Positions 24,224 through 26,855 of a stretch of DNA of 64,000 bases are shown one piece after another. The notes under the pieces are model-generated. The model saw only the letters and a list, made by a program, of their open reading frames with translations, ran no database searches and was not told the origin of the DNA. The DNA is from Bacillus sp. J37. Its GTDB lineage: Bacteria; Bacillota; Bacilli; Bacillales; Bacillaceae. The DNA is taken from positions 106 through 64,105 of the forward strand of contig NZ_JAEK01000011.1 of the NCBI RefSeq assembly GCF_000518865.1. Reading direction: 5' to 3'. The first letter of the stretch is position 1. Each line of letters opens with the position of its first letter. Made by a program: the position numbers and the translations under genes.

Positions 24224-24703
24224 ATGAGAAAGAAAAATGAATTGACAAATAATAAACAAGACCCTCAAAATGAACAATTGGATTTTTTTCAAATAGTTGA
24301 TCATTTCTTTCGTTCTGAACCGATAAGACAATTTATGAATGAGTTTGATTCTATGTTTGAAGGTTCATTTCCACAAAAATCGATACATGTTAATACTTAC
24401 GAAACAGATCAAACATGTGTAATTGATATGCAAATTCCACCAGTTAAAAAAGAGCAGATAAAACTGGAGCTAATGGATCAATATTTGACGATTTCCATTA
24501 CCAATCGAGAAGAAATCAAAGAGTATAACGAAAATTCTTCAACTTTTAGAAGTTACTCATCACTTGACAGTTTGTCAAAAACCATTGTTCTACCTTACAG
24601 GGTAGAAGAACACGAGATAAAAACCAAATATAAAAACGGATCTTTGCTTGTTACAATTCCTAAGAAGTCAACACAAATATTACTTGAAGATGATTCTATA
24701 TAA
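24224..24703 (+). CDS. Small heat-shock protein, Hsp20 family
   Basis: A 159-residue alpha-crystallin-domain protein. The domain covers roughly residues 55-150 and contains 'DMQIPPVKKEQIKLELMDQYLTI', split strands, and the terminal 'KYKNGSLLVTIPKK' signature with an IxI/V-type tail. It would act as an ATP-independent holdase, or as a spore/coat-associated variant. AAGGAGG precedes the ATG by about 12 nt. It is divergent from ypqE and has its own terminator. Confidence 0.88.
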   Translation: MRKKNELTNNKQDPQNEQLDFFQIVDHFFRSEPIRQFMNEFDSMFEGSFPQKSIHVNTYETDQTCVIDMQIPPVKKEQIKLELMDQYLTISITNREEIKEYNENSSTFRSYSSLDSLSKTIVLPYRVEEHEIKTKYKNGSLLVTIPKKSTQILLEDDSI

Positions 24704-24771
24704 ATATTCTACAATGTTTAATTAAACTTCGTAAATAGGTACGCTTAAGCAAATTTACAAAACAAAATAAA

Positions 24772-24820
24772 AACGCTCGACTCTCTTTTAAAAGGCGCTA
24801 AAACGAGAGCTGGCGTTTTT
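24772..24820 (+). terminator. Terminator of the Hsp20 gene
   Basis: AACGCTCGACTCTC and GAGAGCTGGCGTT form a long stem with a few mismatches, followed by six T. It also lies just beyond the stop of the small minus-strand gene, so it may serve both directions. Confidence 0.75.
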
Positions 24821-24824
24821 TCAT

Positions 24825-24941
24825 TTAACTATTTTTGTGAGATTTACTCCCGTATTTTGGATTTTCTTCAGGAGTTGGATCCTTTGCTAAATCTTTGGCT
24901 GACCTTGTCACTTCTTGATTTTTGATTGTATTTTTCTTCAT
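24825..24941 (-). CDS. Small hydrophilic protein, 38 aa, possibly spore-related
   Basis: MKKNTIKNQEVTRSAKDLAK... ends SKSHKNS and is very hydrophilic and Lys/Asn-rich, like minor small acid-soluble spore proteins. AAGGAGGTGA lies 6 nt before the ATG, an unusually good ribosome binding site. It faces a group of sporulation genes. No exact family is recognised. The coding call rests on the ribosome binding site, composition and context. Confidence 0.6.
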   Translation of the reverse strand: MKKNTIKNQEVTRSAKDLAKDPTPEENPKYGSKSHKNS

Positions 24942-25065
24942 CTCTGTCACCTCCTTCTTATGATGACTTTAATTACACTGATTTACACGGTTAAAAAAAA
25001 TCCAAAAATTGTCGCGAGAAAAAAACGGTTCACATCAAACAATAAATTAAGGAGGTGCATAGAAT

Positions 25066-25251
25066 ATGCCTAATAAAAAAAATAAACTACCCGATTTCAG
25101 AGAGCTTGATGACCGATTAATAGCTGAGGCATCACATTCTCCATCTCTCGTGATTAAAACGAACTTGGACAAGGATAATGTGAAAGAAGATAATCCTTAT
25201 GCAACAGATCATTCAAATTCTCCTGCATTTGAAAATTTTTTTAAGGAATGA
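25066..25251 (+). CDS. Small hydrophilic protein upstream of csgA (YbxH-like)
   Basis: A 61-residue hydrophilic protein beginning MPNKKNKLPDFRELDDRLIA, with no membrane segment. AAGGAGGTG lies 9 nt upstream of the ATG. It ends 6 bp before csgA, as ybxH precedes csgA in B. subtilis, so I take it as the YbxH counterpart by position and size. Its function is unknown; forespore expression together with csgA is likely by association. Confidence 0.75.
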   Translation: MPNKKNKLPDFRELDDRLIAEASHSPSLVIKTNLDKDNVKEDNPYATDHSNSPAFENFFKE

Positions 25252-25257
25252 TAAAAG

Positions 25258-25506
25258 ATGGACTTTACTCTCGGATACTTAAGAGAATCATTATCAAATT
25301 ACGATAGAAGCTCCGTATGTAAGAGAATTACTAACAAGTTAACAAATGGAAAATTCCATTCTGAATTAGACTTTGTTCGAATACTTGAAGAAGATGAAAT
25401 TCAATTTTTAAATAATGTTTTACCAGATGAAATTAAATATGCGTTTAATGAACAAGATTTTATAAGAGGTAATCAGCTTAATGAGGTTTATGAGCTGCTA
25501 ATATAG
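25258..25506 (+). CDS. csgA: Sigma-G-dependent sporulation protein CsgA
   Basis: An 82-residue protein with the CsgA features MDFTLGYLRESLSN at the start, 'EDEIQFLNNVLPDEIKYAFNEQD' in the middle and 'NEVYELL' at the end. This is the length I remember for B. subtilis CsgA, a forespore protein expressed under sigma-G. The molecular role is unknown. It is preceded closely by a ybxH-like gene and followed by two more small genes on the same strand with AGGAGG sites, so a four-gene operon is plausible. In B. subtilis csgA lies far from this region. Confidence 0.85.
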   Translation: MDFTLGYLRESLSNYDRSSVCKRITNKLTNGKFHSELDFVRILEEDEIQFLNNVLPDEIKYAFNEQDFIRGNQLNEVYELLI

Positions 25507-25526
25507 TCTTTAAACAGGAGGTTCTC

Positions 25527-25787
25527 ATGAATAGAAATAGTAATCATTACATTAATATCAAGTTCCAAACCGGGGCAATAGATCGTGAAGGTGTGAATGG
25601 CTGTCAAGTAGAAGATGTTATTAGCGTTCTTGTAGACCAATTAAAATCTCATCAAAATGGTGATTTTGCTTGCCCGGAAAATTCAATCGCTATTTCTAAT
25701 CTTCAAACCGCAAACTATGCATTAAGAGTTAGAAAAGAACGAATGGAAGACAAACATAGAGGTATTGAAACACATGCAACATTTTAA
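25527..25787 (+). CDS. Acb2/Tad1-type hairpin-domain protein
   Basis: An 86-residue protein. After a short beta-like N-terminus (YINIKFQTGAIDREGVNGCQ) come two helices: 'VEDVISVLVDQLKSHQNG', a loop with FACPENSIAISNLQ, then 'ANYALRVRKERMEDKHRGIE', closing on ETHATF. The spacing VNGCQ...L..HQ.G.FAC.EN..A...L......R...R...GIE.TH matches the Acb2/Tad1 hairpin family, which in phages sequesters cyclic nucleotide immune signals (CBASS) or gcADPR-type signals (Thoeris). AGGAGG lies 6 nt before the ATG. The chromosomal setting, behind csgA, suggests a host function. The family call is by eye. Confidence 0.7.
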   Translation: MNRNSNHYINIKFQTGAIDREGVNGCQVEDVISVLVDQLKSHQNGDFACPENSIAISNLQTANYALRVRKERMEDKHRGIETHATF

Positions 25788-25905
25788 TACAAAGAAATAC
25801 TCAAATACAGATGTAGAAGAAGTTAAAAGGTTAAATGCTAATTCAGGTTTATCTTATCGTGAAGTAAAAGAACTTCTTGCCAAGAAATATAGTGGAAAAT
25901 CTTGA
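25774..25905 (+). CDS. Small gamma-SASP-like protein, 43 aa
   Basis: MQHFNTKKYSNTDVEEVKRL... then NANSGLSYREVKELLAKKYS. The TDVEEVKRLNANS stretch resembles the repeated E-T-N/D-V-x-E-V-K-x-x-N-A-x-S unit of gamma-type small acid-soluble spore proteins. It overlaps the previous gene by 14 bp in another frame, and AGAGGT lies about 10 nt upstream. It is too short for a full gamma-SASP and lacks the germination-protease EFASE site, so it is a relative rather than a classical SASP. Its stop codon lies inside repeat copy B. Confidence 0.6.
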   Translation: MQHFNTKKYSNTDVEEVKRLNANSGLSYREVKELLAKKYSGKS

Positions 25906-25976
25906 CTTGTCGCCAAGTCCTAATGGAAAGAATTAGTATTTCTTATACGATCATCCTTAAAATTTATATACTTTCT
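25894..25976. repeat. Structured dispersed repeat, copy B
   Basis: Second copy of the element at 11659-11741, same orientation. It contains a perfect GACTTG-TCGC-CAAGTC hairpin and CTAAT...ATTAG. The closing base pair of the first hairpin is G-C here and A-T in copy A, which preserves pairing. It overlaps the last codons of the gamma-SASP-like gene. Confidence 0.75.
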
Positions 25977-26002
25977 GATATTAAAAAGTAACTCATGATT
26001 TT

Positions 26003-26031
26003 AAGGGGCTGTCTCAACTTGACAGTCCCTT
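26003..26031. terminator. Bidirectional terminator between the csgA cluster and yppG
   Basis: AAGGGGCTGTC and GACAGTCCCTT form an 11-bp stem with one G-T pair. AT-rich tails on both sides let it serve the rightward csgA cluster and leftward yppG. Confidence 0.65.
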
Positions 26032-26060
26032 ATAAATAGCATTTTATGGTATGTTACACA

Positions 26061-26510
26061 TTATTTAAACATAGATGTTACACCTTTAAAAAGCCCGCCC
26101 ATTTGATTAACAGCATTCATCATTTGACCTGCTGTGTCCATCATTTTATTAAAATCTAACTGTCCGTCAGATTTTTTAAATTGTGATAAGACGTTTTGGA
26201 ATCCACTTGGCTGAGGCTGCTTAAAATAAGGTAAGGGCTTTGGATATGGCGTAGGATAAGGATAATTCATAAAAGTATTTTCAACATTTCCATTATAACT
26301 ACCATTACCATATGGCTGTTGATAGGACTGAAATGGTTGTTGATACCCATTTTGATGGAATGAAATTTCATGTACTTGTGACAACATTGGATTTATATAT
26401 TGCTGATTTTGATATCCAACAGGTTGGTGCTCATAGTATGGAAATGCTTGAAAGTATTCATTTTCTCTTCTCCGGGACCTTCTATTGAAATACGGGTATG
26501 TTTGGTGCAT
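26061..26510 (-). CDS. yppG: YppG-like spore coat-associated protein
   Basis: A protein of about 149 residues, rich in Tyr, Gln, Asn and Pro, with a coat-protein-like low-complexity front (QQPFQSYQQPYGNGSYNGN) and a conserved C-terminal part starting 'SGFQNVLSQFKKSDGQLDFNKM' and ending GGLFKGVTSMFK. I start it at the ATG at 26510, which has GGGAGG 8 nt upstream. A sigma-K-type promoter lies 36 bp before, consistent with late mother-cell expression. The position next to yppE matches B. subtilis. Confidence 0.82.
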   Translation of the reverse strand: MHQTYPYFNRRSRRRENEYFQAFPYYEHQPVGYQNQQYINPMLSQVHEISFHQNGYQQPFQSYQQPYGNGSYNGNVENTFMNYPYPTPYPKPLPYFKQPQPSGFQNVLSQFKKSDGQLDFNKMMDTAGQMMNAVNQMGGLFKGVTSMFK

Positions 26511-26545
26511 GTAGTAAACCTCCCTATAGCTCATTATTGCTACTG

Positions 26546-26574
26546 TATTATATGATTCATTTGCCTATAATGTG
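26546..26574 (-). promoter_or_regulatory. Candidate sigma-K promoter of yppG
   Basis: On the minus strand the -10 box CATATAATA (CATA-N3-TA) is preceded 17 bp upstream by CACA as the AC-centred -35. It is positioned 36 bp before the yppG start. Confidence 0.5.
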
Positions 26575-26690
26575 AAAGGAAAGCCGCTATCAAAAGATTC
26601 ACTACTTATAATAATTTATCTATGTTCATACATGAATATCGTTAGGTTAGTTCATATTAGGAAAGAATCATGAAAAGGAGGTCATATACA

Positions 26691-26855
26691 ATGGCTCGAG
26701 GTAAACATTTTAATCATAAAGAAAAAGGACATGCTCCTACAATTCCAAGTCATGGTCAGAAAGTTATAGCTAAAAACACAGAACATGTAGAATATGACAT
26801 AAAAACAGTTGGGACCGTAAACGAACGTCCTGTTAGTATAAAGGTTGATGAGTAA
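26691..26855 (+). CDS. Small basic protein of unknown function (54 aa)
   Basis: MARGKHFNHKEKGHAPTIPS... is a small His/Lys-rich protein ending VNERPVSIKVDE. AAAGGAGG lies 9 nt before the ATG at 26691, which decides the start over an in-frame ATG 21 bp upstream. It is convergent with yppE and shares a terminator. It is hydrophilic, with no membrane segment, and lies among spore genes, so a spore role is possible, but no family is recognised. Confidence 0.65.
   Translation: MARGKHFNHKEKGHAPTIPSHGQKVIAKNTEHVEYDIKTVGTVNERPVSIKVDE

Follow-up and report, generated by a model that had tools for sequence, protein, structure and literature searches.

Tad1 and Acb2 are small immune-evasion proteins of phages that act as sponges for the nucleotide signals of bacterial defence. 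Tad1 is described in PMC12043709 as a hexamer of three dimers, with pockets that take glyco-cyclic ADP-ribose (gcADPR) or cyclic dinucleotides and sites between trimers that take cyclic trinucleotides; the same account gives it an N-terminal antiparallel beta domain (beta1-beta4) and a C-terminal tail that helps to close the ligand pocket. T4 Vs.4, an Acb2, is reported in PMC10097602 as a hexamer that binds three molecules of cyclic GMP-AMP (cGAMP) with a Kd of about 30 nM. The literature searched places such proteins in phages and prophages only, and no host-resident, non-prophage Tad1 or Acb2 protein was found in it, which, given the limited coverage, is weak negative evidence. Here we analyze an open reading frame (ORF) at 25527..25787 on the forward strand of a 64,000-nucleotide stretch of the Bacillus sp. 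J37 genome (contig NZ_JAEK01000011.1, hereafter the window), which we call the hairpin gene. It follows csgA, a gene for a sporulation protein. The explanation that we favor, at a probability of roughly 0.5 as a whole, is that an ancient hairpin gene of the Tad1 lineage became a domesticated member of a cluster of sporulation genes in the order and that its ligand pocket was rewritten on the way.

That the protein is homologous to the Tad1 hairpin we regard as practically settled. A profile search matched it to PHROG 2428 at E 7.5e-19, a family that is matched by 11/11 members of the host alignment and that also takes in two full-length Tad1-like phage or prophage proteins (E 4.3e-44 and 3.2e-48). 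A single-sequence search of the PDB returned six distinct Tad1 sequences (E 1.7e-7 to 1.1e-5) and gp184 (8y6v, E 2.4e-6), and a host profile improved the best Tad1 match to E 1.7e-12. One of the entries, 7uav, is the Clostridium botulinum prophage Tad1, labeled 'ABC transporter ATPase' in one listing. The predicted monomer has two helices, residues 28-44 and 50-81 (mean predicted local distance difference test score 76.4), and superposes on Tad1 8kbb_L over 53 residues at 1.2 A. In a Foldseek search of the PDB with this model, rows 1-20 were all Tad1 (E 1.2e-3 to 2.3e-2, probability 1.00) and row 21 had E 2.3. The two-helix hairpin that the original prediction expected is therefore borne out in the model, and the motif residues that it quoted are present in the 86-residue protein. 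Its claim of a family match holds through PHROG 2428 and the Tad1 chains, and fails for the Pfam model it named. PF24729 (Acb2_Tad1_hairpin) did not match the protein at E<=1, nor did it match in a six-frame search of the genome, which weighs against the assignment. In a control, however, phage members of PHROG 2428 also fell under the curated cut-off of 27 bits (L061 22.4 and L046 22.2 bits; L042 unlisted), so that PF24729 covers this branch poorly and annotation based on it misses part of the family. No family model of small acid-soluble spore proteins (SASPs) in Pfam or NCBIfam matched the protein.

The hairpin has been kept and its pocket changed. We compared 20 host rows, which include 15/15 genus copies, with 24 phage rows. 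Duplicates (L044, L047, L058, L068-L071), near-copies (L066, L072) and fragments (L049, L033) were left out both here and in the tree described below, and here also L039, which is identical to L061. The phage rows were fetched with peptide patterns that derive from the IKFQ and GAI..G.NG segments, which makes positions 8-28 look more conserved in phages than they are, whereas positions 42-81 are free of this bias; CbTad1 itself lacks the NG of the second segment. Hosts and phages share a common frame of F13, Q14, G16, I18, G22, N24, G25, E29 and L39, continuing with Q43, F47, N52, A55, L59, A62, L66 and R69. Within it, N52 and R69 are invariant in 20/20 host and 24/24 phage rows. Position 73 is Arg in 24/24 phage rows and in 0/20 host rows, where it is hydrophobic throughout (20/20); position 65 is Trp in 22/24 phage rows and Ala in 20/20 host rows; position 70 is Thr in 23/24 phage rows and Lys or Arg in 20/20 host rows; and position 42 is Phe in 23/24 phage rows, against His 16, Tyr 2 and Phe 2 in the hosts. 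The GVEGT tail, which the phage rows keep at positions 77, 78 and 80 (G 21, V 22 and G 22 of 24), is variable or absent in host rows. Invariant in hosts only are, among others, D19, C26, Q27, V28, K40, S53, N58, E71, R72 and E74, and the segment INIKFQ.GAID..G.NGCQVEDV ranks among the most conserved parts of the host proteins. The Tad1 N-terminal beta domain (about 45 residues of the long phage form) is missing in 11/11 host rows, as it is in the short phage forms L042 and L043.

By structure superposition, positions 42, 52, 69 and 73 correspond to CbTad1 82, 92, 109 and 113. We take F82, N92, R109 and R113 of CbTad1 to be contacts of the gcADPR pocket. The expectation of conserved ligand-contacting residues thus stands for N52 and R69 and falls for the equivalents of F82 and R113 and for the C-terminal tail. 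The RGIETH ending, which gives the window copy its likeness to the phage GVEGTH tail, is not conserved even within the genus. To judge from the alignment, two contact positions kept and two changed is the pattern of a site that was retuned or lost and then placed under strong constraint, and with its pocket so altered the protein probably serves a different job for the host cell.

Across 15 genus copies, residues 1-74 have a median number of nonsynonymous substitutions per site (dN) of 0.053, below each of the five neighbor genes measured (csgA 0.151, hsp20 0.160, the SASP-like ORF 0.219, yppG 0.280 and the small ORF 0.285), compared with 0.431 for the C-terminal tail. Genes were picked by motif and start (csgA at 12, hsp20 at 14, yppG at 11 and the other three at 15 of 15 loci); many pairs were saturated at synonymous sites and dropped, the hairpin gene retaining 65/105. 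Low dN in residues 1-74 and high dN in the tail suggest that the first 74 residues carry the function, which seems not to depend on the RGIETH tail.

Among the 21 genomes of the genus set, 16/21 match: 15 hold one intact copy each, and G017 keeps 21 residues only. One copy (G015) looks interrupted, but its ORF is intact at 79 residues and the apparent internal stops fall beyond its stop codon. Most of the named records with the gene belong to Metabacillus, the probable genus of the set. Elsewhere in the family, 1/59 genomes matches (G022, of another genus, whose copy, in the corresponding place, is broken). In the order 8/397 match, namely the window's own genome, five of host form (G152, G110, G436, G103 and G146) and two of prophage form, and in the class 3/398 (G110, the window genome and G125, the last through its prophage copy). 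Searches of individual families gave 2/2 for f25, 2/4 for f32 and 2/18 for f11, one of the f11 pair being a prophage. Plasmids gave 0 matches among 72,556 records. Phage records gave 103, from several bacterial hosts and all at <60% identity, and two IMG/VR scans found 8 and 25 relatives, the best being about 47-49% identical across most of the protein, with a single 27-residue piece at 56%. The cluster in which the gene sits comprises the following.

24224..24703, forward strand: hsp20-like gene (PF00011, E 3.6e-12), the upstream neighbor in the lineages compared
25066..25251, forward strand: small ORF of 61 residues upstream of csgA, with the motif SPSLVIKTNLD
25258..25506, forward strand: csgA, sporulation protein (PF17334, E 4.5e-31)
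25516..25521, forward strand: AGGAGG, ribosome-binding site of the hairpin gene, read directly, 5 bases before the ATG
25527..25787, forward strand: hairpin gene, Acb2/Tad1-type, host clade, 86 residues, ATG start
25774..25905, forward strand: SASP-like ORF of 43 residues in another frame, overlapping the end of the hairpin gene by 14 nt
26061..26534, reverse strand: yppG, convergent, closing the cluster (PF14179, E 4.6e-24)

Beyond yppG the window continues with DUF1798, DUF2515, recU and a penicillin-binding protein. The neighborhood of the hairpin gene recurs in three other family groups of the order (f11, f25 and f32). csgA, found in 20/21 genus genomes, lies directly upstream of the hairpin gene in 15/15 carriers and is present at locus L008 too; the listing of ATG-started ORFs covered 7/17 loci. 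All five host-form copies of the order sit between an hsp20-like gene and yppG; in f11 and f25 csgA and the small ORF adjoin the gene, and in f32 both are missing at the locus and one further ORF precedes yppG. A relative of hsp20 adjoins the cluster in L034-L038 and L041, and the small ORF, which matched no Pfam or NCBIfam family, is present in 16/16 genus loci examined and, in other lineages, in L035, L036, L037 and L041. PF17334, which Pfam names 'minor curli fiber component A', matched only Bacillus subtilis among 14 control genomes. The SASP-like ORF matched TIGR01442 (SASP_gamma) at E 0.05 in the window and 0.0038 in the L007 copy, both under the cut-off. As predicted, the hairpin gene follows csgA with its own AGGAGG, and a GGAG- or GGGAG-type sequence precedes its start in the forward-oriented genus loci viewed.

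Between 19915 and 32358 we scanned 14 proteins against Pfam and 13, the hairpin protein included, against PHROGs; of the 12 neighbors, an MrfA-type helicase, Hsp20 and RecU alone matched a PHROG at E<=1e-3. None of the proteins scanned was recognized as a phage structural, packaging or integration protein, in agreement with the claim that no prophage surrounds the gene, which is very probably a resident gene of the host. A small ORF on the reverse strand (24825-24941) that ends KYGSKSHKNS diverges from the cluster, with similar ORFs in several genus loci; it matched no family.

The two prophage-form proteins of the order (G125 and G359, of 123 and 127 residues) lie in prophage head clusters, with terminase, portal, minor head and major head proteins recognized by PHROGs. 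Their full-length Tad1-like genes (L039:8422-8793 and L040:8063-8446) lie between the minor head protein and the scaffold or major head protein. The solved gp184 (8y6v) belongs to the same family, some members of which might be tied to the virion. G017, with its truncated csgA-side copy, carries a separate hairpin protein at L002 (G017:C16:67997-71170, match 1501-1674) that matches PF24729 (E 4.3e-22) and PHROG 1454 (2.6e-32); an integrase gene (PHROG 1, E 4.2e-62) follows it after about 255 nt.

Within the genus the gene has also been given up. At this locus the hairpin gene alone is missing from G012, where csgA and the SASP-like ORF are still present; G017 has its first 20 codons and then a short new end; in G008, G018 and G019 no hairpin gene and no SASP-like ORF were found between csgA and yppG. 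No csgA match was obtained in G010. These absences make the gene dispensable, and three different states at one locus suggest that it was lost more than once.

The setting suggests when the gene would be used. Only 20 nt separate the csgA stop from the start of the hairpin gene, and given this spacing and the overlap downstream, the gene is probably co-transcribed with csgA and the SASP-like peptide; one message with csgA would place expression most likely in the forespore. PMC3533761 lists CsgA among the SASPs of B. subtilis. Scans of 560 bp with simple consensus sequences for sigma-G, F, K and A promoters gave nothing convincing: in all 16 loci the best sigma-G match scored 9 or 10 of 13, its place differing between loci, and sigma-70-type matches numbered 14 against 10.4 expected. 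The region 24600-26700 yielded no terminator-like site, and 24800-26100 no inverted repeat. Before the small ORF, at about 24990-25060, 16 genus loci share a conserved block, AAAAA..CCAAA..TT....GAGA.AAA and TCAAACANTA, followed by GGAGGTG; it is not a sigma-G or sigma-F consensus and is partly missing in the L003 row as cut.

We propose that a hairpin gene of the Tad1 lineage was taken into this cluster long ago and is read there on a single message with csgA and the SASP-like peptide. The protein would have retained the loop and hairpin with which Tad1 protomers form their nucleotide pockets, and it may still form an oligomer that binds a small nucleotide. Its pocket would have changed along the branch that leads to the host clade and been kept constant since, so that a ligand would not be taken as the phage proteins take gcADPR or the signals of cyclic-oligonucleotide-based anti-phage signaling systems (CBASS). 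Whether a nucleotide-like ligand is still bound at all we judge to be an even question. The most economical host ligand would be a cyclic dinucleotide of sporulating cells such as cyclic di-AMP (c-di-AMP), perhaps buffered or carried into the spore. CdaS, the sporulation diadenylate cyclase, is described in PMC4568413 as making c-di-AMP during sporulation, in B. subtilis under late-forespore control and with an effect on germination, and the review PMC12043709 reports that Acb2 binds 3',3'-c-di-AMP and that Tad1 binds it weakly. CdaS is encoded in 20/21 genus genomes, all 15 carriers included, and the sole genome without it, G008, also lacks the hairpin gene; this co-occurrence is uninformative as support for c-di-AMP, which we would name as the ligand only with considerable doubt. 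A spore-stage nucleotide buffer, which the original prediction had suggested, is coherent though hypothetical at each functional step, since Tad1 and Acb2 bind nucleotides, CsgA is counted with the SASPs and CdaS occurs in all carriers. It is a tentative possibility, which we do not expect to be the final answer, that a phage sponge was turned into a developmental protein devoted to receiving or storing a nucleotide second messenger in sporulation; in such a case c-di-AMP from CdaS, or a novel signal, might be soaked up or carried in the forespore alongside the products of csgA and the SASP-like ORF.

In the chief alternative, binding was lost altogether, leaving the hairpin as a small structural protein of the spore or a SASP-like protein that packs DNA or protein, kept for its fold and for the charged face of its second helix (R69, K/R70, E71, R72 and E74). 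The replacement of R73 (24/24 phage rows), W65 (22), F42 (23) and the GVEGT tail, the new invariant set in helix 2 of 20 host rows and neighbors that comprise csgA and a weakly SASP-like peptide would all fit. We nevertheless think it unlikely, because the INIKFQ.GAID..G.NGCQVEDV segment is conserved beyond the needs of a bare hairpin and N52 and R69 have not changed in any host or phage row.

It is more doubtful that the protein is an anti-defence sponge still, domesticated to quiet the bacterium's defence by cyclic nucleotides in the forespore or during germination. Its fold and lineage are Tad1-like, and a protein stored in the spore could supply the stoichiometric amounts by which sponges would be expected to act. 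However, in a search for defence genes that covered Thoeris, ThsB_TIR was found at E<=1e-3 in 7/21 genus genomes (6/15 carriers and 1 non-carrier) and as a strong match (E<1e-10) in 3/21, 2 of them carriers. With 9/15 carriers lacking any ThsB match at E<=1e-3 and 2/15 having a strong one, a retained anti-defence role becomes less likely; no association of Thoeris with the hairpin gene was seen across the 21 genomes, and the pocket and tail are altered.

The direction of transfer bears on a further alternative, in which the host gene is ancestral and Tad1 arose when phages acquired its domain from bacteria of this kind and built on it. Our tree comprised 11 host rows (6/15 genus copies among them) and 25 phage rows over 81 columns. 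The host rows group as one clade (support 100/100), whose stem measures 1.49 changes per site, and the nearest phage rows are L042, L043 and L046, at a support of 93/62 only. The compactness of the host clade, which spans four family groups, would suit a host origin, and a precedent has been argued in PMC11722364 for the sponge Acb4, which is unrelated to the Tad1 hairpin. Yet the phage forms are more diverse and more widespread (the 103 phage records come from several bacterial hosts), and a long stem leads to the host clade, so we consider a host origin improbable. As the tree is unrooted, passage from phage to host is likely rather than proven, and domestication, as originally suggested, is the likeliest history of the gene. 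Recent prophage debris beside csgA, for which the phage relatives and the full-length Tad1 prophages in two genomes of the order might speak, is ruled out for practical purposes by the same neighborhood in four family groups, the low dN, the neighbors scanned, which include no phage-type gene, and the failure to find a close phage copy.

A host form retained at a single locus next to a gene for a spore protein would demonstrate that bacteria can enlist immune-evasion sponges for their ordinary physiology and would help to reveal which nucleotide matters in spores, and the host clade offers a natural experiment on the retuning of a sponge pocket. For annotation, a Tad1-like gene on a chromosome need not imply a prophage.

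Set against described proteins, the hairpin protein keeps the genomic company of CsgA and other SASPs, probably on the same transcript, but matched none of their family models in Pfam or NCBIfam. With Acb2 (T4 Vs.4, 7uq2), as described in PMC12043709 and PMC10097602, it shares a size of about 90 residues, two long helices and the lack of a beta domain. The short phage forms (L042-L044 from IMG/VR, 83-84 residues) have its length and layout, from the start through YINIKFQEG and VNGAQIEEV to the hairpin, but are 47-49% identical and keep the W, R and GVEG tail of phage type. To Tad1 itself (CmTad1 8kbb; CbTad1 7uav and 8kbf) it is alike in the homologous IKFQ.G segment, the next loop, both helices and the hairpin fold, and in the invariant equivalents of N92 and R109. 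It differs from Tad1 in having no N-terminal beta domain and no GVEGT tail, in an F82 equivalent that is mostly His and a hydrophobic R113 equivalent, and in being encoded on the chromosome beside csgA rather than by a phage or prophage. Several of the defining features of Tad1 that were checked are thus absent and we do not assign the protein to Tad1. Nor do we place it with Acb2; we treat it as a member of a host clade that stands apart within the Tad1 hairpin lineage.
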